Made by a program: the position numbers and the translations under genes. From the NCBI GenBank assembly GCA_002887195.1, contig PJAB01001628.1, positions 1-13,196 on the forward strand: a stretch of 13,196 nt of DNA, in the 5' to 3' direction. Source of the DNA: Chrysochromulina parva (taxonomy: Eukaryota > Haptophyta > Prymnesiales > Chrysochromulinaceae). This document shows, in pieces, positions 1 through 11,373 of the stretch (position 1 is the first letter of the stretch; every line of letters starts with the position of its first letter). Under the pieces are notes generated by a model. The model worked only from the letters and a program-made list of their open reading frames with translations, searched no databases and was not told where the DNA came from.

Positions 1-155
1 CAATCAGACTGATGAGGGAGGCAATCAGACTGATGAGGGAGGCAATCAGGCTGATGAGGGAGGCAATCAGACTGATGAGGGAGGCAATCAAATTGATGAG
101 GGGGCAATCAGACTGATGAGGGAGGCAATCAGACTGATGAGGGAGGTAATCAGGG
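1..155. repeat. 21-bp minisatellite array, about seven units
   Basis: The unit is CTGATGAGGGAGGCAATCAG plus A or G. Units are nearly identical; one unit (85-104) is 20 bp with A-for-C and T changes. Each unit has complementary ends, CTGAT and ATCAG. The array continues past the window edge. Confidence 0.95.
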
Positions 156-181
156 CTCATCAGAGCGGCTCCAAGACTCAC
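1..181 (-). other. Intron 7, 5' part only
   Basis: It begins at a consensus GTGAGT donor (bases 181-176) after HFER, phase 1. The rest of the visible sequence is the 21-bp minisatellite running to the window edge. The acceptor and next exon are outside the window. Confidence 0.75.
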
Positions 182-3100
182 GCTCGAAGTGGTCGCGCTG
201 CAAGCTCAGCTCGATCTCAAACTCGGCCCGCCGTCGCGCGAGCTCCATCTCGAAGGCGGCGCGCTCCGACGAGCCGAACGCCACGGGCGCACCGCCCGAG
301 CTGCCCGAGACGGCGCCCGCCGAGCTGCCCGAGACGGCGCCCGCTGAGCTGATCCTTGCCGACGAGCTGCCCAAGACGGCGCCCGAGCCGCTCGGCGTCG
401 GCGGCGGCGTGTTCGGCGGCGGCGCGCGGCGCGGGGGTGGCTGCGGCGGCGGCAGATCAGCATCGTAGTACGCCGCCGCAAGATCCGCAAGGCTGGGCGT
501 CGTGTTGGGCGGCGGGGAGCGCTGCCCCTCCCGCTGCCCACGCGCGTGCTCAGCACGGCGCTCCTGCCGTTGCAGCTCGAGGCGCTGCATCTCGATCCGA
601 TCTCGTTCGGCGCGCCGAGATTCAATCTCGTCCCGGCGCCGAGATTCAATCTCGTCCCGGCGGCGCGCTTCGTCACGCCGGCGCTGCTCGAGGGCGAGGC
701 GCCGCTCGGCGGCCTCGCGCTCGGCGAGCTGGCGACGCACCTGATGAGGGAGGCAATCAGACTGATGAGGGAGGCAATCAGACTGATGAGGGAGGCAATC
801 AGACTGATGAGGGAGGCACTCAGACTGATGAGGGCGGCAATCAGGGCTCATCAGACCTGATGAGGGCGGCAATCAGGGCTCATCAGCCTCACCTCATCGG
901 CGGCGTCCATTTCGTCAATGAGCCTCTCGATTTGGGTCTGGCTGAGCAGATGGGCGAGGAGCGCGGAGGAGAGGCTGGGCGAGGCTGTGGGGCTGTGGGG
1001 ACTCGTGCCTCGAGGGCCGCTGCTGCGGCTGCTGCCCTGAGGACCATCGCTGCTGCCGCCGTCTTCGACGACGCCCTCGGCCTCGCCGTCAGTCCGCAGA
1101 GCCGAGATCGTAGCTCGGATGCGCTCGCGCGCCGTCGCGGTGATCGGCTCTTCAACGGCCGCCCACAACAGCGCGGGCGGCGCCGCTCGCGCCACGTCAA
1201 GCAGGAACCAATCGAGCGCCATCGTGAGCGTCGCACGGTCGAGCCCGCATGCAAACCGCGCCCGGGACGACGCGCACCCGCCGCGTGAACGAGCCCCCCA
1301 CGCCTCGCTCGGGACGGCGCTCGGTACGGCGCTCGGTACGGCGCTCGGTACGGCGCTCGGCACGAGGGCGTTGCACTGGGCGTACAGGCGTGAAGGGAGT
1401 AGGGAGGACAGTCGCGGCGGCTGCTCGCGCAGCTCGAGTCCCTCGAGATTTCCCCACAGCTCGAAACCCAGCAATGAGCGAAGCAGAAGCACGCCAGGCG
1501 CTCGCGACGACGCCGAGGCAGGCGCGCCGTTCCCCTCACCGCCGCTCCCCTCACCGCCGCCGCCGCTCCCCTCGCCGCGGACCGATTCCGTGTCGGCCTC
1601 GCGGAGCGATGGAGCCGCCCGCGGACTTGCCACAGCCGCTGCCACAGCCGTGGAACCGTCGCGAAGGCGCTCGTGACGGCGCTCGTGCTCGTGACGGCGC
1701 TCGAGCTCATCTGTGAGGAAGGTCCATCCATAGCTCCCGCCATCTGGGCGCGTCGTCGTGATCAGCACAAGCCGGCGTGCCCGCTCGACCGTCTCGTGGT
1801 AGCTGCTGCCCAACACGGCGTCGCCTCGGCTCATCCGATGCCATGCCTGTGCACAGCGCAGCGCGACCCACACGAGCCATTCCCAGTGATCGGCATCGGT
1901 GAGGCCGACGGGGCTCGTGCTGGTAGCGCGGCGTCGCTGCTCATCCAAGCGTGTCGCCGGACGCTGTCGAGTGCTCGGGATGGCGCTCGGGCGCGTCGAG
2001 GACGAGGCAGCGAAGGAGGAGGCGGAGGCGGCATCGGGGGCGGCGGTGGCGCCGCGGACAACGGCGCTGCTGCTGCTGCTCGCGGCGGAGGTGTGAACGT
2101 TGGAGGTGTGAACGGCGGAGGTGTGAGGACGACCAAGATGGTCCGCATTTGGGTCGGTGGGCGTGGCGGCGGTTTCGTCAAGCGCCAGAGGACGCTCGAA
2201 GATCTCCGCCACGAGATTCCACACACTCTCATCACCGTCGGCCTCGTCGAACGCTCCGCCACCCCCGCCGCCGCTCCCGCCAGTGGCAGTGCCGCTCCCT
2301 CGAGCTCCACTGCCGCCGCCGGCCGTGCCCCGTGCCTCTGCTTGCCTCTGATTGCCTCGAGCCTCTTCGGCCGCCGCCACCGCATCGGCATCCGCCCACA
2401 CGAGGCATGCCTTGAAGCAGCGCCTCGCACGCGATCGAGCGCTCTCGAGCCCGGCGAGGCCGGAGTCGAGTAGGGGCGCGAAGAGCGACGCGAGCGACGG
2501 ATGCACGCAATGGGCGCTGCAGTGTCGGAGGAGCAGTGCAGTGGTCCGGGGCGCTGCGGCGGGCTCTGGCAGCACGAGCAGCAGCTCCTTATCATGCGCG
2601 AGCTGCCAGGTGCACCGCGCGTCGAGCACGAGCGTCGCCGCACGACCACGTGCAGCGGAGGGGACGGGTAACTCCCAGCGCCGCGGAGGGAGCGCGCCGC
2701 GCAGGGCGAGCGCGAGCACAGCCTTATAGCATGCAAGCAGCTCCCGACTCGGAGTCCGACAGGTGTGAATGTGAATGTGCTCCCGACTCGGAGTCCGACA
2801 GGTGCGGCTGTCGATCAAGCGCTGCGGCGCCACAGAGGCCCCCGAGGCGAGGTCCTCCTCCTCGTCGTCGTCGGACTGGTCGTCATCGTCGGACAAGTGA
2901 GGCAAGTGAAGCGCGTCGTCGTGCGCGTCGTCGTTCGCCTCGGCGGCGGTGCGATCGGGCGGCGAGGGGTTGCCCAAGACGACGCCCTCGTGCACCTCAA
3001 GCACCCAAGGCAGCACACTCCCCAGCATCATCTCAAGGGGCGTCGGGTAAGGGAGCGGTGGAGAGAGCACGGCCAGAGGTGCGGTGCGCGCCGAGCCGCC

Positions 3101-5894
3101 GCGGCCGCTCCCGCCGCCGCCGCTGTCCGATCGCTTCGCAGTGCCGTTCAGGCAACACGCCTCGATACACGAGAGTGCCGAGCTGCATGCATCGGGATCG
3201 GTGCATGCGTCGGGATCGGTGCATACGTCGGGATCGTGCGCCTCGGGCCGGGCGCTGCGCTCAAGGCATTCTCTCACGTGGTCCTCGAGGGCGATGATGG
3301 AGCCGGCCGCACTACCGACTTGCTGGAGCGTGGTCCACAGCTCGAGGGCACCTGGGTCGCCGAGCTCGCCTGCATGCAATCAGGGAGGCAATCAGAGCGC
3401 AATCAGAGCGCAATCAGAGCGCAATCAGAGTGCATCTGGGTCGCTGAGCTCGCCTGCACTCCACACGCAGCGCTCAAACGGAAAGAAGCGCGCGCCCAGC
3501 CACATGCCGCCCGCACTGCACACGCGAGGCCACGTGTCCTCTCCGAAGCTCAAGCCGCTCGGGCGGGGGCTGAGCGCCGTGCTGAGCGCCCCGATGCTCA
3601 GGCGCTCGAGCAGCGTGCTCACGCGCGCAGCGAGGGGAGTGGGCGTGGGCGCCGAGTTGGGCACCATCCAGTTGTGCGGCGCCCTGATCAGATCCGCGCG
3701 GCGCTCAACATGGCGCGTCATGCTCGGTGTGCCCAGCTCGGCGCGTCTGTCCCGTTGCTTCTCCTCGTCCTCGTCCTCCTCGTCGTCCTCCTCCGTCTCC
3801 TCACCCACGCCGCCACCCTCGCCCTCGCCGCCACCCTCGCCGCGCTCGGCACGCACGAGGAGGGCGCGCGAGAGGCGCGTATACAGCAGCCGCGCACAGT
3901 CCGCAGGCTCAAAGCGATGAGTGAAGCCGAGCAAGAGCGACAGCACCTCCCATGTTGCCTGATGAGGGAGGCAATCAGACTGATGAGGGAGGCAATCAGA
4001 CGGCAAGCAGGAGCGACAGCACCTCCCATTCACATTCACAAGGCAGGAGCGACAGCACCTCCCATGTCGCCTCCTCCGCTGCAGCCACGCAAGTGTCGCT
4101 CTCGTCCGCCTCCGCCGCCGCCGCCGCCTCCTCGTCCGCCTCCGCCTCCTCGTCGTCGTCATCTTCGTCGGTTAGCCGCTCGCCCTCCACCGCAGCGTCC
4201 TCCTGGGCGCTCATCGCGTCCTCCTGGGCGCTCATCGCGTCCTCGTGGGCGCTCGACTCGTCCGAATCGCTCACGACGGCGCGCCCCTCCCGCCCACCGT
4301 CCCTCTGCCCATCGCCCCTCTGCGTCGGCCGCGCCGTGTCGGGCAGCTCCTTCAGACGAAGCATGCCGAGGTGCTCCTCAAGCAGCGAGCGTGTGCAATG
4401 GTACTCGGGGTGGCGTAACGGCAATCCACAGTGGAAGAGCAGCTCGTCCACGTACCTAATTAGGGAGGCGCTCGCAATCAAATAGGGGCCATCAAGGACG
4501 ATCAGGGGACCATCCGGTCCTAGCAGGGCACAGTACCGAGGAGAGCACACCCTCGAGAGCGCGCGGCGCCGTCGTGGGCGCCCAAGACGACGCCCCTCAA
4601 CGTCCGGCGCGTCGAGCAACGCCACGTACGGCAGCGCCGAGTCCTGTAGCGTGCTCCGCAGCAGCGGCACCAACTGCCCCATGCGCTCCTCGTACAAGCG
4701 CAGCAGCGTGGCGAGCGCCTCGAGAGTAGCGCCGTCCCGAGCGGCGCGCGCCTCGCCCACGTGGGCCAGCAGCTCGCCCGCCAATGCCTCCAAGGTGGCT
4801 CCGACGGTGCTTCGCTCCGCATCGGCGCGCGGGAAGGTGACGCCAAAGGCGAGCACCATCGCCAGCTCCCAATGCACCCGCGCCGCCCACGACGACGCGA
4901 CCGACGGCGGGAGCACGAGCGTGTGTTTCGTGCCGCCCGAGTGCTTTCGACGAACCCCGAGCATGCAAGGGAGGGCCACGTGGAGTCTCGTCACGTCACG
5001 GCTGCTCACGACGCGACCGTCGGCGACCGGCAGCGCCACGGCAGCGCCCGCGGGTAGCAGCTCGCTCAGTCCGTTCGGGTGGCCCAGCGAGACCGCGTAA
5101 CGGAACGCGTCCCACCTGATGAGGGAGGCAATCAGACTGATGAGGAGGGAGGCAATCACGTAACGGAACGCGTCCCACCATGTCTGCGGGTCGGCCGTCG
5201 CGCACAGACCGAAACGGAAGCACACGCGCAGCTGATGCTGCAGCTCCACCTGATGAGGGAGGCAATCAGACTGATGAGGGAGGTAATCAGTCATCACGCA
5301 CAGGATCGGCCCGCGCGTGTCTTGACGAAGGGAGGCAATCAGACTGATGAGGGAGGCAATCAGACTGATGAGGGAGGCAATCAGACTGATGAGGGAGGCA
5401 ATCAGGCTGATGAGGGAGGCAATCAGGCTGATGCTGCAGCTCCACCGAGGTCGCATCTCGAATGCCCAAGAAGGCGAGTAGGGGAAGCAGCCCGTCCACC
5501 CCATCCAACCGCTCAAGGTCGAAGCGCGGCACGATGCGCTCCGCCAGGCGCATCACAGCCGCCCCGTGCGCGAGCAACGAGGGCGAGAAGCCCAAGCACA
5601 GCGGCACGCCGTCGGACGAGTGCCGTCGGAGTGTCGATGATCCGAGGACGGGGAAGATGCGCAGCGGAGGCGGCGCGGCGGCGGCCGCCGCCGCCGCCGC
5701 CGCAGCCGCCGCGGCCGCCTTGGAGGAAGTGGACACGTCAGCGGCCTTGGGGGAGGTGGACACGTCAGCGGCCTTGGGAGAGTCGATCTCGCGCATGAGG
5801 AGATCGAGCGCATCTGGCATGAGCAGATCGGCCCAGCGCATGAGCAGATCGTGATCGAGATCGTGCGCATCGGCGGCGCTCGAATGGTTTCGCC

Positions 5895-5929
<35 letters not shown>

Positions 5930-8900
5930 TCTCTCGCCGCCTCCCTCGCGACGAGCGCCGCGACGGGCACCGCCCCGATGAGCGCCGTGATGAGCAGGCG
6001 GAGTGGCGCGTGCCTCGCCTGCGTGCCGAGGCGTTGGCATGCGGCGTACTCGGCGGCCAAAAAGCGCCAGACGGCCACAATGACCTCCTCCTCCGACCGC
6101 GCCGTGTCGGGCACATCCTTTCCAGCCGGCGGAGCGACGGGCGCCGTATCGAGCGGTGCGCCCTCCACATCGTCGTCCAGAACGCGCCCGCCACGGCGCT
6201 TCTGCTCCTTGACCTTCTGCAGCGGCGCCAAGCCCAGCTGCCTCGACCTCGCCGCCGCCGCCGCCGCCGCCGCCTTGCGCGGATTCTCAACGTACGTCTC
6301 GAAATTGGGGATCCATACGGTGTCGTCATCCCACGAGGATGCCGAAGAGGAGGGCGCCTTCGCCTTGGTCACTCCGAGCGCCGTTCCGGGCGTGTGCTTC
6401 GGTTGTGTCTTGGTGAGCCTCGCACGAGAGCCTCGCACGAGAGCCTCGCCCTCGCCCAATACGGCGCCCTCGCCCTCGCCCACACCGGCTACATCCTCGC
6501 CATCCTCGTCATCGGCGTCGACGACGTGGCCGCCGCGCGGCGCACCACCGCCGCGGTCGGCGCCGTATTGGGCGCCGGCACGCCCCCCCCCGCCGCTGCG
6601 CCCCCCCCCGCCGCCGCTGCCCTCGGCCCGCGACGCACGCTCCAGGACGAGCCGCAGGCAGTCGAGCACGAGGCTCAGCGGGCAAGGCTCAAGGCAGCAC
6701 TCCAAGCCCATCTCAGCCACTGCCGACGGCAGTGCGAACTGCTTCGCCCCGCCGCTCACCCGTCGCAACACCGAATTGGGGACCAGAGACGCAGGCAGGT
6801 GGGCGGGGCGCAGCACCGCCTGCTTTCGCGGCACGCGCTCGGGCGGATCCTCCGTCGGGATGCGCAAGTAGGCGCTCGTCTCGCGATGGAGCGCCGTCGC
6901 GAGCGTGTGCCACTTGCGCCCGCCGCCGCTGCGCGTCTCCTTGCGCACGCTGTCCAGTTAGGGGAGGCGATCAGAGGTCATTAGACGTCATTCGAGGCCA
7001 TCAGAGGTCATCAGAGGCCATCAGAAGTCATCAGAAATCATCAGAGGCCATCAGAAGTCATCACCTGTCCATTTCGGGCAGGTAGACGGGGAAGGCGTCC
7101 TCGCCCAAGATAGGATCAGACAGGATTGCATGCACGAAGAGCTTTGGGATGCGCCCAAGGAGCACGTGGTTCGCGCTGTGGGAATCGGACACGTCCTGGC
7201 GGCTCGCGACCAACTCAAAATCCGCATGCATGCCGAAGCCGAAGCCGGCCGCCGTCACGGGCAGATACGCGAAGACCATCTCGCCTTCGGCCGAGCGTAC
7301 CGGCACGCCTTCGGCGCTCACTGGGAACGCGAGCGCAATCGTCGTGGTGGCCGCCGTCGGCGTCGTCGTGGGCGCGGCTGATGCGCCCCCCGTGCTCCCA
7401 TTCACAGCCGTGCTCCCATTCACACCCGACGACCAGACCGCGCCCGCGGCGGCTGCCGTGGCAGCCCGGTGCTTGTGGAGTGTGTACTTGTGGAGGCGGT
7501 AGTGACGGCGGACGGTACTCACGGCGCCGGCGGTGCTTTGGACGCTCTCGATGATGGTGCATTGGGTGAGGCGGTGGCGCACGACGTGAAGCCCCTTGAG
7601 GACGCCGACACCAAGGCCGCCGACGCCGCTGCTCCCTCCATCGGCGCCCAGTACGGCGCTGCTCCCTCCGGCCCCCGCCGCTGCTGCCGCGTCCTCGTGG
7701 GCGCCGATCGGCACTGCAGCCACGTCGCCGCCGAAGGCCTCGGGGGCCTCCCCGCGGTCAAAGATGAGCGTTTGCTCCATGCGATGTTCGGTGATGGTGG
7801 CACCGAGCATCGATCCGAGCGTCGTGCCGAGCGTCGCTGCCGCGCTAGCCGTCGTGTCGCTCGACGCCGCCGCCGCCTCGCCACCACCTCCCTGTGACGA
7901 CACCGTCTCTGACGAAATCTCGCCACCACCTACCTGTTCTGTCGCATGGGGGGCGCTCGCCAAGCCAGTCGAGCGCCGTGTCAAGCGCGCCGCCGTCTCT
8001 GACGAACCCTTCGCTGCCGGAACGGACACGAAGGTGACCTTCTCCAGATGCTTAAGGAAAGCGAGCGCGAGCCCGTCGAAGCTCAGGTCGCGCAGCAGGT
8101 CGAGCCCGCGCACACGTGCCGCAAAGGGACAGACGAGGAGCGTGCCTGTGCGCGCGACGCGAGGGTAGAGAGCGTCCTCGCCCCCAGCCACGAGGACGTC
8201 GCCGGCGGCGGCGGGACCAGCCGCGCTCACGACGGCGCCGTCGCGAGCATGACGAGCGCTGTCGTGAGCGGACGGTCCGAGCACCCTGTGCAACAGATCG
8301 TGATGACGCGCCGGCACGAGCGTCTCGGGCCGCTCCACCCACGAGGGCACGATGTACCCAAAGACGCCGTGGGTCGCGGTGTCGAAGCAGAAGCGAAAGG
8401 GGGGCGAGAGGACCATGGGTCGATCGGTGATCTGGAAGACCGACTTGAATCCAATGCCCTTGCGCCCGATCTTGCCGCTACCCGCCGCTTTGCTCGACTC
8501 GCCCACCTGGCACATGGCATACAGGTCCTTGGGCTGGAAGCCGCGCTCGTTGTGGTAGGCGACGAGGGCCTCTGGTGAGCATTCGATCCGAAGCTCTCGC
8601 ACAGCGCGCGTGCGGCGCCCACCGGCCTTGGCGCTCGAGACGGCGCTTCCGCCTGCCTTGGCCTCTGCCTCCGCCTCCGCCTCCGCCTCCGCCTCCTCCC
8701 CCCCGTCCTCCTCTCCCCCGTCCTCATCCTCGAAGGTGCAGTCGTCGGCGTTCTGTATCACCTCAAACAAGAGCCGCGTCGAGGCCGAGTAGATTTGTGA
8801 CGACAGAGTCCGCAGCGAGTTGACGATCGTTCGCTTATTCTCGTGCCAGCATGCCAGCTGCGCAGCGCCCATGCCCGTCTCGTCCGGCAGCTTCAGCCTC

Positions 8901-9675
8901 TCCAGAGCCTCCACGACGCGGCGCCCCGCCGCCGCCTGCCCGCGCCCAAGCACCGAGTGGAACAGAGAGGGGTCCGTCGACGCCGTTGGAGCGCCGTCTC
9001 GGGCGCCGTCGCGGGCGCCGTCTCGGGCCGTGGCAGCGGTGGCCTCCTCGTACGCCGCCGCGGCGCCGCCGCGATCGCCGGCGTCGCCATTCACCTTGCC
9101 GCCGGCGTTGGCGCCGCCACCGCCCGGGGTCAGCTCGGCGACTCCGCTCTTGGCGTCACCGCCGCCGCCGCCGCTGCCATCGCCGCCGCCGCCGCCCTCG
9201 CCGCCCCCGCCGCCGCCGCCGCCGCCGTCGGACGCGCGCGTGGGGCGAGCTTGGCGCCGATCGCTCCCAAGATCTCGCTCGAGCGCTTGCTGGCGCAGCC
9301 GCTCGAGCTCGTCGCCCTGCTGCGCGAGGAGCGCGCGCGCCTCGAAGTCCTCCTCGCGCAGCTGCACCATCTCCTCCGCGAGACGATCCTTCTCCGCCTC
9401 GAGCGCCTCGAGCGCCTCCGTCTGCCGCCGCAGCTCGAGCAGCAGATCGGCTCGCTCGAGGTGCTCGGAGGCGCCGCGGAGGGCGTCGAGCTCGATGCTC
9501 AGGTCGCGCACGAGCGCGCCCGGCTCGATGCCGCCCAGAAAGCTCCGGCGCAGGCTGCGCGCCTCCCACCCATGCACCGCCGCGATCGACTCCAGCCGGC
9601 GCTTGAGCGACTCGCGCTGGCCGAGGAGCTCCTCCCAGCTGACGAAGACGCCCTCGACGGGCTCGGCGATGCTGC

Positions 9676-9729
<54 letters not shown>

Positions 9730-9931
9730 GCTTGGGCAGCAGCCACTTGTCCCGCCCGCTCGGCTGCACCTCGTCCTTGAAGGCGTCCTCGTCCGCAAAA
9801 TGCTTGTGCTTGCCCCCCTTCTTGAGCCGCTCGCGAGGCAGCGGCTCAGGTTCGTCGTCGGCGGCGGCCAGCGTCACCTGCCGCAGCTTGCTCGCCTTGC
9901 TGCTCGTCTTCTTCTCGCGCCCGTGGTACAT
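1..9931 (-). CDS. Giant NO VEIN/sacsin-type GHKL ATPase-domain protein, seven exons, 3' end beyond window
   Basis: Inferred joins (minus strand): 9931-7065, 6949-5446, 5249-5179, 5115-4059, 3946-3454, 3369-893, 740-182, then off the window. This gives 9,028 coding bases, 3,009 codons without a stop. Residues about 360-955 form the recognisable part: LLFEVIQNADDC (E390, N394, D397: the GHKL N-box), HNERGF (461) where classical GHKL proteins have DxGxG, GKIGRKGIGFKSVF (486-499, the glycine-rich ATP lid), then FGYIVPSWVE and FAYLPVTAAGFGFGMHADF (887-905). These blocks and their order match the plant NO VEIN-like and sacsin-related ATPases as I remember them. A coiled coil precedes them at 145-218. 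Family members are large chaperone-like or developmental proteins; substrate and location here are unknown. The start at 9931 is preceded by GCCGCG; an upstream in-frame ATG at 10120 would add 63 residues. The C-terminal DUF3883 domain of NO VEIN proteins is not seen in the window. Confidence 0.88.
182..740 (-). other. Exon 7 of the GHKL ATPase gene: charged coiled-coil tail
   Basis: Codes VRRQLAEREAAERRLALEQR, two RRDEIES repeats and further Arg/Glu helices, then a Pro/Ser/Gly/Ala linker, then another charged helix ending HFER. Read in phase with exon 6 it gives a long charged coiled coil of the kind used for self-association; that role is inference. The exon ends at a GTGAGT donor, in codon phase 1, so the gene continues beyond the window. 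Confidence 0.8.
617..664. repeat. 24-bp in-frame exon repeat, two copies
   Basis: GAGATTCAATCTCGTCCCGG plus four bases, twice in tandem; codes RRDEIES twice in the coiled-coil tail. Period divisible by three. Confidence 0.85.
741..886. repeat. Minisatellite array in intron 6
   Basis: Four to five 21-bp units (CTGATGAGGGAGGCAATCAG plus A) are followed by two 30-bp variants (825-854, 857-886) in which GGCGGC replaces GGAGGC and CTCATCAG is added. One unit reads GGCACTCAG. Confidence 0.95.
741..892 (-). other. Intron 6 (152 nt, GT-AG) of 21- and 32-bp repeats
   Basis: The donor is GATGAG then GTGAGG; the acceptor is CATCAG then GTGCGT. Phase 0; the join reads DAADEVRRQLAERE and makes one continuous charged helix. 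The intron is almost wholly minisatellite, with two 30-bp units bearing 8-bp inverted ends beside the donor. No long exon duplication is seen here, only GGTG at both ends. Confidence 0.85.
1309..1361. repeat. 12-bp in-frame exon repeat
   Basis: ACGGCGCTCGGT repeated four to five times; codes PSAV repeats on the minus strand. Confidence 0.88.
2740..2804. repeat. 26-bp direct repeat with 13-bp filler in exon 6
   Basis: Copies at 2740-2765 and 2779-2804 are identical and separated by TGAATGTGAATGT. The period of 39 keeps the frame and codes TCRTPSREHIHIH then TCRTPSREL. Confidence 0.88.
3190..3237. repeat. 18-bp in-frame exon repeat, two to three copies
   Basis: TCGGGATCGGTGCATGCG type unit; codes the repeated CTDPDA on the minus strand. 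Confidence 0.85.
3370..3453 (-). other. Intron 5 (84 nt GC-AG, or 90 nt GT-AG)
   Basis: The 23-bp segments 3352-3374 and 3436-3458 differ at one base. The acceptor is GCATGCAG then GCGAGC. The matching donor inside the first copy is GTGCAG then GCGAGC, a GC-AG intron giving WSAGELGDPGALELW. A GT donor six bases upstream (3459) gives WSELGDPG instead. Both keep the frame; sequence alone does not decide. Confidence 0.7.
3376..3431. repeat. 11-bp tandem repeat in intron 5
   Basis: AATCAGAGCGC repeats about four times after a degenerate unit that contains GGGAGGCAATCAG. It shares the AATCAGA core with the 21-bp minisatellite. Confidence 0.9.
3454..3946 (-). other. Exon 5 of the GHKL ATPase gene
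   Basis: Codes VLSLLLGFTHRFEPADCARL through CVWSAG. It includes a Gly/Glu-rich acidic linker (GEGGGEGEGGG followed by many D and E) and then ordered sequence (HVERRADLIRAPHNWMVPN; LSFGEDTWPRVCSAGGMWLG). The 5' join to TWE restores the segment TWEVLSLLLGFT. The 3' join has two possible donors six bases apart, both in frame. Confidence 0.8.
3947..4058 (-). other. Intron 4 (112 nt, GT-AG) formed around a triplicated AGGT segment
   Basis: The 20-bp segment GAGCGACAGCACCTCCCATG (plus strand) lies at 3935-3954 and 4047-4066, with a third copy differing in its last base at 4011-4030. On the coding strand each copy holds GGGAG then GTGCTG, so AG then GT is present at both ends. Joining first to last copy gives ATWEVLSLLLGFT. 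Alternatives that also keep the frame are a donor at 4022 (adds 12 residues) and an acceptor at 3959 after CATCAG (adds 4). Confidence 0.82.
3959..4000. repeat. Two 21-bp minisatellite units in intron 4
   Basis: Two perfect copies of CTGATGAGGGAGGCAATCAG plus A, set between the duplicated exon segments. Confidence 0.93.
4059..5115 (-). other. Exon 4 of the GHKL ATPase gene
   Basis: Codes WDAFRYAVSLGHPNG through to EEATWE, residues to 1833. It contains well-folded-looking sequence (VALPCMLGVRRKHSGGTKH; LLRLYEERMGQLVPLLRS; RYVDELLFHCGLPLRHPEYH), then a Ser/Asp/Glu/Ala-rich acidic tail with three seven-residue repeats of the type SAQEDAM. A stop-free frame and biased composition support coding. 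No named domain. Confidence 0.83.
4196..4258. repeat. 21-bp in-frame exon repeat, three copies
   Basis: GCGTCCTCCTGGGCGCTCAT plus C, three times with two changes in the last copy; codes a repeated EDAMSAQ-type peptide in the acidic region of exon 4. Confidence 0.88.
5116..5158. repeat. Two minisatellite units in intron 3
   Basis: Two units; the second carries a GAG insertion (GATGAGGAGGGAGG). Together with the 21-bp exon copy this makes the intron exactly 63 nt. Confidence 0.92.
5116..5178 (-). other. Intron 3 (63 nt, GT-AG) with 21-bp exon duplication
   Basis: The donor is ATG then GTGGGA; the acceptor is CATCAG then GTGGGA. Bases 5096-5116 and 5159-5179 are identical. Removing one copy plus two repeat units restores TWWDAFRYAVSLG. 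The intron is 21 codons long and has no stop in the reading frame, so retention would add 21 residues (a repeat of ISLIASL type) without breaking the protein. Confidence 0.82.
5179..5249 (-). other. Exon 3 (71 nt) of the GHKL ATPase gene
   Basis: A short exon coding VELQHQLRVCFRFGLCATAD and ending in PQTW with a split tryptophan codon. Its first 19 bases are repeated at the start of the preceding intron, and the first bases of exon 4 are repeated at the start of the following intron. Both joins keep the frame: SVELQHQLRVCF across the first and TWWDAFRYAVSLG across the second. Confidence 0.8.
5250..5433. repeat. Minisatellite array in intron 2, split by unique sequence
   Basis: Two units at 5250-5290, about 35 bp of unrelated sequence (5291-5325), then about five units to 5433. 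The last units have G in place of A in the linker, as also seen at 43-63. Confidence 0.93.
5250..5445 (-). other. Intron 2 (196 nt, GT-AG) with 20-bp exon duplication and 21-bp minisatellite
   Basis: The donor is TCG then GTGGAG; the acceptor is CATCAG then GTGGAG. Plus-strand bases 5231-5250 and 5427-5446 are identical, so either end of the intron carries the same exon sequence. Splicing gives DATSVELQHQLRVCF in phase 0. The 3' splice site is the end of a minisatellite unit. Confidence 0.88.
5665..5720. repeat. GCC/GCG triplet tract coding poly-Ala
   Basis: Codes an uninterrupted alanine run of about 15 residues followed by prolines on the minus strand, next to two 27-bp repeats (about 5722-5780) that code KAADVSTSP. 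Confidence 0.85.
5896..5930. repeat. GCC triplet tract coding poly-Ala
   Basis: A run of GCC triplets read as about 11 alanines in exon 2 after REAAREA. Confidence 0.9.
6950..7064 (-). other. Intron 1 (115 nt, GT-AG)
   Basis: The donor is GACAG then GTGATG; the acceptor is CTAACTGGACAG then CGTGCG. CTAAC just before the acceptor fits a branch-point consensus. TGGACAG occurs at the end of exon 1 and again at the end of the intron. Phase 2; the join reads EMDSVRKETR. The intron body is a 10-bp tandem repeat. Confidence 0.85.
6970..7062. repeat. 10-bp tandem repeat in intron 1
   Basis: About nine units of CATCAGAGGT/C and CATCAGAAGT with point changes (ATTAGACG, ATTCGAGG at the left end). It shares CATCAGA with the other intron arrays. 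Confidence 0.92.
7396..7431. repeat. 18-bp in-frame exon repeat, two copies
   Basis: CCGTGCTCCCATTCACAG-like unit twice; codes VNGSTAVNGSTG on the minus strand in exon 1. Confidence 0.8.
9680..9727. repeat. GCC triplet tract coding Gly16
   Basis: Sixteen GCC triplets (GGC on the coding strand) code residues 69-84 of the ATPase-domain protein, flanked by KR and SSS. Confidence 0.95.
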
Positions 9932-10247: not shown

Positions 10248-11373
10248 TCACACCTCTTTCTTTATAAGGTGAAAAACCTTCGCCCCCGAGACGAATCCCA
10301 GCCAGTGCGGGTTGGCCGCCAAGGCGCCAACCTGCAACGTCCGGTATCAGGTAATAGGGAGGGAGTTATTTACCCGCAAACGCTGGCGCACGCTTCCCTG
10401 CATCTGCTGCGCGAACGTCACGAAGCCTGCGCCGTCTCTGACGCAGTTCTGCTCACCAACGCGCAGGTTCGAGCGCTGAGGAAATCACGGAGTCGATCTC
10501 GTTCATTTGGAGTCCGTGTAAGGGTCGTTGAATTTTTTGTCGTCATTGACAATGTCTCTGACGCAGTTCTGCTCACCAACGCGCAGGTCAAAATCTTCTT
10601 CTGATCCACTTGAAGACGCCACGCGCCTCGCCACGCGCCTCAGCGCAGCCATGTCCACCTCGAAGCCACCCAGTCCCGTCACCTTTGCCAGGTTGGGCTT
10701 CGAGCGCTGAGGAAATCACGGAGTCGATCTCGTTCATTTGGAGTCCGTGTAAGGGTCGTTGAATTTTTTGTCGTCATTGACAATGGCGTTCCAATGGGTC
10801 CGCCAACCGTTTGTCGAATATCCGGCAACCTCGTAGAGCTGGCCGTCGAGCGTCGTACTTGACTGTTGTGCGTTCGACGAAGCCCTTTGCCAGTGTCTCG
10901 AACATTTTGGCAAACTTCGAAGCCCTTTGCCAGTGTCTCGAACATTTTGGCAAACTTCGTATCGATGCGGCACGCTTCCCATGAGCTGGCGTTCAGACCA
11001 TTTGGCCTTCCTTTTTGACAGACAAACCCCCTTAGGTTTGTTTTTGAACGGGATGCGACGAGGAAGGAACCCGAGGTTGTGTGGCGAAGTAGCACCGCGG
11101 GCTCCGTCCCTTTGGCGTGGCCGCCCTTGGCTGCGGCAACCGACGTGCACTCGCCAAAGATGCGCGGCGCGACGGCCCCAACGACGTCCCAGACATTGAC
11201 ACCGTCCGCTGCTCCCGCTCCGAGTGCGGCCGACGCGATCTCGATCTCGCCCTCGGCGTTGGTGGACGCGGCGATCACGACGTTCTGGGCGGCGCAGGCG
11301 GCGGCGAACGCCCCGAGCAGGGCGTCTGTCGCGCGAGTTGTCGGATTGAACTTTCTCCAGTTTTTTTTTTTGA
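10248..11373 (-). CDS. Hypothetical protein, broken by duplications; exon model tentative
   Basis: I do not recognise the family. From a likely acceptor (CTCGCAG, exon from 11373) the frame reads NWRKFNPTTRATDALLGAFA, VIAASTNAEGEIEIASAALG, VNVWDVVGAVAPRIFGECTS, SFLVASRSKTNLRGFVCQKG and ASSWEACRIDTKFAKMFETL. A frame change is needed within or after a 40-bp tandem duplication (10878-10957). The next frame reads LYEVAGYSTNGWRTHWNAI. Treating 10707-10781 and 10476-10550 as copies of one 75-nt intron (GTCAATG to TTTCCTCAG) continues the frame through PNLAKVTGLGGFEVDMAALR and DLRVGEQNCVRDGAGFVTFA. A 42-nt segment (10332-10373, GTAAAT to TTGCAG) then leads to ANPHWLGFVSGAKVFHLIKK and a stop at 10248-10250. 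Upstream exons may lie in 11400-11860. It could equally be a decaying gene. Confidence 0.42.
10332..10373 (-). other. Candidate 42-nt intron
   Basis: GTAAATAAC donor after CGG, and GGACGTTGCAG acceptor. The join in phase 0 reads QRLRVGALAANPHWLGF. The length is very short for an intron; without it the protein ends seven codons further on. Confidence 0.35.
10434..10468. repeat. 35-bp direct repeat, left copy
   Basis: Identical to 10554-10588; the pair brackets the inserted 85-bp segment like a long target-site duplication. Codes LRVGEQNCVRD on the minus strand. Confidence 0.95.
10468..10554. repeat. 87-bp direct repeat, copy B
   Basis: Identical over 87 bases to 10699-10785. Its ends abut, sharing one base each, the 35-bp repeats 10434-10468 and 10554-10588. 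Confidence 0.97.
10476..10550 (-). other. Candidate 75-nt intron, copy B
   Basis: It begins GTCAATGACG and ends GATTTCCTCAG. It has in-frame stops, and its removal joins NCVRDI to RSNLRVGEQNCVRD in phase 0. It lies inside an 85-bp segment flanked by 35-bp direct repeats. The donor is weak; the acceptor is good. Confidence 0.45.
10554..10588. repeat. 35-bp direct repeat, right copy
   Basis: Partner of 10434-10468. Confidence 0.95.
10699..10785. repeat. 87-bp direct repeat, copy A
   Basis: The second exact copy, 231 bp from the first, without flanking direct repeats. Confidence 0.97.
10707..10781 (-). other. Candidate 75-nt intron, copy A
   Basis: Identical in sequence to the copy at 10476-10550. 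Removal joins HWNAI to RSKPNLAKV in phase 0. Unlike copy B it is not flanked by a direct repeat, so it may be the source copy. Confidence 0.45.
10878..10957. repeat. 40-bp tandem duplication, two perfect copies
   Basis: Two identical 40-bp units. The period is not divisible by three, so it shifts the frame within the segment coding TKFAKMFETLAKGF on the minus strand. Confidence 0.95.
11361..11371. repeat. T11 homopolymer
   Basis: Eleven T on the plus strand (A11 on the coding strand), immediately after the candidate acceptor CTCGCAG. Read as lysines in the hypothetical protein; prone to length error. Confidence 0.9.

Follow-up and report, generated by a model that had tools for sequence, protein, structure and literature searches.

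Contig PJAB01001628.1 of the Chrysochromulina parva assembly GCA_002887195.1 (13,196 nt, analysed at its full length and called the window here) carries a giant gene whose introns contain a 21-bp repeat, and this repeat belongs to the first of two genome-wide families of intron-like inserts that are commonly flanked by a direct duplication of exon sequence. Chrysochromulina is a haptophyte. On balance, we lean towards reading the inserts as recently gained spliceosomal introns that arose by insertion of intron-derived repeat filler at staggered breaks, and we infer both the recent birth and the break-repair step. The origin of introns is a long-standing question; here there are hundreds of copies of two intron-forming sequences with an anatomy that points to a route other than DNA transposition, and new introns may arise in this genome in an unusually visible way.

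Genome-Wide Distribution of the First Repeat Family

On the coding strand, the 21-bp arrays in introns 2, 3, 4, 6, and 7 of the window gene all read CTGATTGCCTCCCTCATCAG, with variants, in a single orientation. The unit comprises CTGAT, a pyrimidine stretch, and then CATCAG, and looks like a ready-made 3′ splice site, with CTGAT being what we take to be a branch-point-like motif. CTGAT and ATCAG also form a 5-bp inverted pair inside the unit, which does not lie at a constant element end.

The exact 20-mer of this family (family 1) occurs 525 times (235 + 290) in the 45.07-Mb assembly of 2,199 contigs, of which the window is one, and the backward-read control occurs 0 times. The unit is directly followed by GT in 337 of the 525 copies (64%), whereas GT comes after 5.5% of 10,077 CAGs outside the unit in the DNA that was retrieved, a count in which copies are not independent and some are tandem. 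Another 71 exact units are followed by GC, part of them inside arrays. A 34-letter dimer joined by a T is found at 15 places, seven in the window contig and five on contig C1743, and the 62 printed units outside the window are, by eye, nearly all single, bar a handful. Because the dimer is rare and the printed units stand alone, the usual form of the family is a lone terminal unit beside an exon.

These counts bear on an earlier note on this DNA, which had described a minisatellite that colonised introns of a single gene as an introner-like element. Repeat-built, introner-like insertions that carry a 3′ splice site are indeed supported, but neither the array as the element nor a confinement to one gene is, as GT-followed units are spread over many contigs and the dimer is rare. 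The note had also named a unit equally common and randomly oriented in intergenic DNA as an outcome that would speak against it. This was addressed by proxy only, through the excess of GT after exact units and the co-orientation of fillers within a locus (60 of 65 pairs, which are not independent). An invasion of individual genes by their own minisatellite was rejected as a general rule, fillers being no more alike within loci than between them (similarity 0.081 vs 0.105; 59 fillers, permutation p 0.91). Searches of IMG/VR and GTDB contigs returned 0 family-1 matches each, in collections that may omit records of this genome or of one very close to it.

Exon Duplications Around the Inserts

A feature that was absent from the earlier note is a duplicated stretch of exon, here called X, one copy of which lies on either side of the filler. 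It was noticed in the printed flanks of the units, where the exon sequence after CATCAG often recurs at the start of the intron. The sample comprised 40 stretches around the first-listed family-1 units, selected for the unit and taken in contig order, and therefore favours the longest contigs. A duplication was accepted at a score of at least 9, with matches under about 9 bp being unscorable, and the control was a swapped flank, in which X came from another locus; it replaced a control drawn from AG/G sites of the same loci (the slash marks the splice point throughout), where further inserts abounded (87 of 820 sites reached a score of 10 or more).

Including the window, 48 of 78 family-1 terminal units and close variants have a duplication, compared with 7 of 780 swapped flanks (Fisher 4e-50). 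Eight of the 48 are tandem-like and were excluded from the length statistics. In the other 40, X spans 10–41 bp, two cases of 60 bp aside (median 23), and the whole intron 57–160 nt (median 76); the lengths of X and filler are weakly and not significantly related (Spearman −0.22, p 0.17). A search that was not anchored to the unit, covering the 40 unit-bearing stretches and the window (252 kb), gave 101 duplications at a spacing of 45–160, compared with three at 1000–1115 and three at 2000–2115. Among the dozens of tabulated inserts X differs from site to site, and where its two copies, up to 45 bp long, were compared in 50 inserts drawn from the two families, 23 pairs are identical, with 48 differences in 1,091 nt overall. 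Many inserts therefore look young.

A second family, distinct in sequence, has the core GCATGCAAGTGCTCACCACGGCGCC followed by pyrimidines and CAG. Exact copies number 278 genome-wide (157 + 121; backward-read control 0), and duplications flank 13 of 19 testable copies, compared with 1 of 190 swapped flanks (Fisher 2e-15); a freer, uncontrolled search found duplications with a score of at least 9 in 25 of 29 cores. The median X is 20 bp (n = 13), and across both families X spans 10–41 bp when two 60-bp cases and one 50-bp case are set aside. In family 2 the filler is shorter where X is longer (Spearman −0.90, n = 13); this keeps the total at 63–86 nt, as would be expected if introns had to reach a minimum size. 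IMG/VR yielded one family-2 match, L082, in which phage-like frames are followed, at 4240–4554, by an end with the family-2 core and an acceptor; this is probably a chimeric contig.

Some inserts have further peculiarities. Units of X plus filler, 64–67 bp long, stand in two to four tandem copies at loci L019, L020, L029, and L044, as simple unequal exchange would give, and splicing there could use the first donor with the last acceptor, or several. At C1743:2765–2974, the sign of such tandem copies is the 67-bp spacing of the unit matches. At L041 (about 2558–2725), a (GTCAA)n microsatellite insert lies within a 30-bp duplication, and the filler is thus not confined to the two families.

Putative Recruitment of Splice Sites

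For the analysis of splice sites, 60 non-overlapping inserts with CTGAT-type filler and an X of 15–40 bp were classed by the position at which AG/GT or AG/GC stands at an equal offset in both copies of X. Such a site is present on the sense strand in 34 of the 60; 29 inserts have one on the sense strand only and 11 on the antisense strand only (p 0.006), an excess that favours the reading of the inserts as introns. With GT given precedence over GC, 11 inserts have the splice point no more than five bases from the start of X, 10 have it in the middle, and 13 have it no more than five bases from the end. All or most of the AG is supplied by the filler in the start class. Fillers of the end class often complete the donor (for example, GTGAGT or GTACGT), and in the middle class both sites come from X. 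The ends of the filler differ between the classes: ATC, ATCA, or ATCAG closes 8 of 11 fillers in the start class, 2 of 10 in the middle class, and 1 of 13 in the end class, and the two unit-ended fillers of the middle class (L011 3196 and window 3930) have an additional GC point close to the start, so that an assignment to the start class would also be admissible. One filler type thus gives the acceptor, the donor, or neither, and has no fixed ends. This variation of the ends is the strongest argument against an element whose termini are fixed.

At L055, L062, and L027, the two copies of X differ, and the left one (GTGCGT, GTATGC) at times matches the donor consensus better than the one in the exon does, which would suit an improvement of the donor after insertion; at L032 and L034 the opposite is seen, with GC in the left copy and GT in the right. 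At L016 (3064–3145), the implied intron is GA-AG, with the sequence CAG/GAACGTC, and a TPR domain is continuous across it.

Protein-Level Support for Splicing

Homologues and Pfam domains that continue across the junctions suggest that the inserts are spliced out as introns. A script spliced 71 insert regions, and ten regions, hand-picked among those with the longest open frames, were submitted to Pfam. In seven of the ten, a family above the cut-off spans the junction (UCH, TRM, Ank_2, Fn3-like, PDZ_1, TPR_12, and, weakly, Methyltransf_11); in an Arm-repeat protein only alignments below the cut-off do so, and in the remaining two, a trigger factor and an Aldedh protein, no Pfam family lies across the junction. 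All ten regions have a family match on the strand indicated by the filler, in what is a selected set searched on that strand only. For the trigger factor (L035), seven homologues chosen from 44 align across the junction, one without gaps and six with a one-residue gap beside it. Its closest relative is 89% identical, and among those with an organism name Haptolina ericina and a Prymnesium sp. come first, with 64% over 80% and 58% over 70%, respectively, in line with a prymnesialean haptophyte as the host. These alignments, together with those over the junctions of the window gene described below, show that removal of the inserts would restore the protein, which is a statement about the protein and not about the intron state of the relatives.

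The Host Gene in the Window and Its Introns

The main gene of the window lies on the minus strand and runs from its start codon at 9931 off the contig start, its coding region with exons, introns 1–6, and an additional intron occupying 182..9931. The model with seven introns is a single open frame of 3,009 aa with 0 stops. Exon 1 contains a SACS domain (Pfam PF25794, 56.7 bits). Among 16 related proteins, the nearest is 86% identical over 63% of exon 1, and the best labelled relative comes from the EukProt single-cell assembly COSAG02 (41%), which points to the host less clearly than the trigger factor does. Homologue P0007 aligns over junctions 1–5, with gaps at junction 5, and P0003 over junctions 1–3, in agreement with the spliced frame. 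Tandem Repeats Finder called 21-bp arrays at 1–153, 741–844, 3959–4001, 5250–5290, and 5329–5433, a 10-bp array at 6970–7063, and an 11-bp array at 3376–3434. Together with the gene model, these calls bear out the earlier placement of the 21-bp unit in introns 2, 3, 4, 6, and 7 in uniform orientation. The claim that CATCAG is the acceptor directly before exon GT in introns 2, 3, and 6 also agrees with the model; in intron 4, CATCAG is followed by GC. Direct duplications of exon sequence flank introns 2, 3, 4, and 5 (19–28 bp) and intron 1 (7 bp).

Intron 1 (6950..7064, minus strand, as are all that follow) contains the 10-bp array, with a donor, GTGATG, that starts in the filler and an acceptor within the duplicated TGGACAG, and the intron ends GGACAG; the alignments of P0003 and P0007 continue over the junction, with a gap of one residue close by. 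Intron 2 (5250..5445) takes its donor GTGGAGC from the left copy of a 19-bp duplication (5427..5445; right, exon copy 5231..5249), ends in CATCAG, and is likewise crossed by both homologues. It had been described as an array throughout; arrays do occupy both sides, but about 38 nt of unrelated sequence (5291..5328) lie between them, of which 34 letters have no second copy in the genome within three mismatches. Intron 3 (5116..5178) is a GT-AG intron of about two units with a 20-bp duplication (left copy 5159..5178; right, exon copy 5096..5115), and the homologues have the corresponding residues, WWDSFRYAV or WWNAFRYAL, once.

Intron 4 (3959..4070), with two units, was modelled as GC-AG; a GT-AG intron placed further inside the duplication would encode an identical protein, and P0007 aligns across. 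Its duplication is 28 bp with two mismatches (left copy 4043..4070; right, exon copy 3931..3958). Intron 5 (3370..3453), also modelled as GC-AG, carries the 11-bp array and ends TGCAG; P0007 matches the exons to either side, though the alignment is gapped where they join, and a 27-bp duplication with two differences (left copy 3432..3458; right copy 3348..3374) was found by eye. Intron 6 (741..892) is a GT-AG intron with a 21-bp array. Intron 7 (1..181) has the donor GAGC/GTGAGT and a 21-bp array and extends past the contig start, with the acceptor beyond it.

One intron had been overlooked in the earlier note. A stretch of 81 nt at 4456..4536, in frame and without a stop, reads as an eighth intron because P0003 and P0007 both lack its 27 encoded residues. 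It holds a decayed CTGAT-type filler ending CTAATTAG/GTAC, and its donor end, CTCG/GTACTG, was set by hand with a one-base shift.

A Proposed Mechanism and Its Alternatives

In the mechanism that we favour, an exon would suffer a staggered break, or two nicks separated by 10 to 40 bases, and the break would be filled and closed around a short, low-complexity piece of intron-derived repeat, which would double X. The filler would consist of units resembling CTGATGACCT, in many cases with CTGATTGCCTCCCTCATCAG as the last of them, or of the family-2 core with its pyrimidine tract and CAG, and would have been copied from older introns. Where AG/G(T/C) stands at an equal offset in both copies of X, the spliceosome could remove one X together with the filler; as this would restore the old mRNA, the insert could be tolerated as an intron. 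Long and variable duplications, the lack of fixed ends, a shared low-complexity filler, and a common orientation fit staggered-break insertion with selection for splicing. More hesitantly, and as a possibility that we would not yet back, the inserts could be regarded as terminus-free introners, that is, as bulk intron birth by repair-like stuffing of satellite sequence into staggered breaks, in which 10–40 bp of exon are duplicated, intron sequence multiplies without a transposon, and splice sites come from the filler, the target, or both.

Several observations weigh against staggered-break insertion with splicing. No duplication was found at threshold at 30 of the 78 family-1 terminal units and 6 of the 19 family-2 copies, and none stands out at intron 6 of the window (best score 5). 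On the sense strand, 26 of the 60 classed inserts have no same-offset AG/GT or AG/GC, and some of these resemble exon repeats, while one is the GA-AG case at L016; likewise, part of the 101 unanchored and of the 60 classed duplications resemble ordinary exon repeats (window 296, L033 3875, L040 4481). A same-offset site is present on the antisense strand in 16 of the 60. When codon usage was modelled from the gene in the window, 37 of 51 duplicated inserts came out in sense and 14 in antisense to the flanking frame, a division of little weight as the model separates the strands poorly. The foreign segment of intron 2, tested as a trace of a parent locus, is unique in the genome. Twelve arbitrary stretches (18 kb) contained three duplications, one of them insert-like, which indicates that inserts are concentrated in some genes. 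Finally, copying that began at the 3′ end of an intron RNA would explain just as well why the terminal unit is conserved at its 3′ end.

This last point leads to the alternative of an RNA template, in which an excised intron RNA would be reverse-transcribed at a nick by a target-primed process like that of LINEs and SINEs, leaving duplications of variable length and an inserted copy that starts from the 3′ end of the intron. The long, variable duplications of 10–41 bp are of the kind that such elements leave, the longest filler stretches shared between loci reach 34 nt and in family 1 mostly end at the 3′ AG (in a set chosen by its 3′ unit), and the genome has five RVT_1 matches above the cut-off. 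However, the 3′ end of the unit is present in just 3 of 23 fillers of the middle and end classes, neither a fixed tail nor a constant 3′ end is seen, and no link between a reverse transcriptase gene and the units was seen. We regard this route as rather unlikely. Retroposition anchored at the 3′ end was rejected as a sole model, the middle and end classes being mostly unanchored.

A non-autonomous DNA transposon with fixed termini would account for a repeated sequence in many introns, a target duplication, and a splice site taken from that duplication, as in described introners (PMC9860276). Yet the duplications are variable and 10–41 bp long, compared with 3–9 bp in earlier-described families that bear such scars (PMC9860276), and neither fixed ends nor constant terminal inverted repeats (TIRs) were seen, although no dedicated TIR search was made. 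This makes a transposon quite improbable. As filler ends are unfixed and the duplication is long and variable, neither a DDE transposon nor a fixed-tail retroposon fits.

Expansion of a minisatellite within old introns, with no insertion at all, is in keeping with the tandem 21-bp and 10-bp units and the re-duplicated X and filler at four loci, and protein homologues cannot tell whether relatives already have introns at these positions; it leaves the exon duplications and the shared terminal unit on many contigs unexplained, and we give it very little credence. An assembly artefact or mixed bin, which the 2,199 contigs and the chimeric look of L082 might suggest, is extremely improbable in view of dozens of inserts with differing X, spliced frames that match domains and homologues, and similar GC content in 12 arbitrary stretches, which leaves a mixed bin not evident.

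Relation to Known Routes of Intron Gain

As in introners (Gozashti et al., 2022, PMC9860276), related sequences make introns at many unrelated sites here (525 and 278 copies, with differing X), and one of the splice sites may come from the target duplication. That survey covers aquatic protists, including a metagenome-assembled genome of Chrysochromulina, a haptophyte like the present host. The features of most introner families described so far agree with DNA transposition, and the target site duplications (TSDs) are 3–9 bp in earlier-described introners and 4 bp in the Chrysochromulina family shown (PMC9860276). The present inserts differ in their 10–41-bp duplications, low-complexity filler, and lack of fixed ends. 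Modes of splice-site supply differ between families in the survey, whereas here acceptor-supplying, donor-supplying, and neither-supplying inserts occur with one filler type. The survey pipeline dropped families with abundant short repeat motifs (PMC9860276), a filter through which family 1 could have escaped notice; the repeat content of family 2 is lower. As this is the largest survey, other repeat-rich introners may have been passed over.

Other systems share part of this anatomy. In Daphnia pulex, some neointrons are flanked by direct repeats ascribed to staggered double-strand breaks (PMC4202315), and here, too, the exon-end sequence recurs at the opposite end of the intron. The Daphnia set has 33 exon-derived repeats of 4–12 bp (PMC4202315), whereas here the repeats are longer and exact filler units number in the hundreds; duplications of at most 12 bp make up 3 of 40 in family 1 and 0 of 13 in family 2, at a score threshold of 9 that leaves shorter ones unscorable. 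The introner elements of the protist Amoebophrya are also repeated introns with direct repeats at their borders, but these are 3–5 nt, accompanied by hairpin-capable inverted repeats of 8–20 nt, and the intron borders are mostly non-canonical (PMC7789003), unlike the mainly GT/GC-AG borders found here. Rogers and Bendich (2025, PMC11782384) read 4–30-bp repeats at intron borders as insertion scars in 213 introns across life; its abstract names no shared filler family, unlike the present case. Fungal introner-like elements and the introners of Micromonas and Aureococcus likewise multiply introns within one genome (PMC9860276, PMC7789003), the fungal elements without TSDs and TIRs (PMC9860276) and those of Aureococcus with repeats and TIRs that do not vary in length (PMC7789003).

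Introners made of a minisatellite or satellite, or lacking termini, were not found described in the literature searched, which consisted of titles and starts of abstracts and had many subscription papers and all preprints outside it. The best reading of the two families is a new form of introner or of break-repair intron gain, with the mechanism still a proposal. Break-repair intron gain thereby becomes testable on many cases within one species, and the three modes of recruitment within one filler type provide a natural experiment on what a nascent intron requires.

Other Features of the Window

Rfam and tRNA scans of the window gave no matches. Its exons also contain minisatellites at 1306–1364, 4195–4254, 286–351, and 5717–5782 (12-, 21-, 24-, and 27-bp units), as well as long alanine/glycine runs. 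Past the gene start, at 10431–10800, blocks of about 85 bp recur by eye (about 10470–10556 and 10700–10785), and a perfect 40-bp tandem pair occupies 10878–10959.

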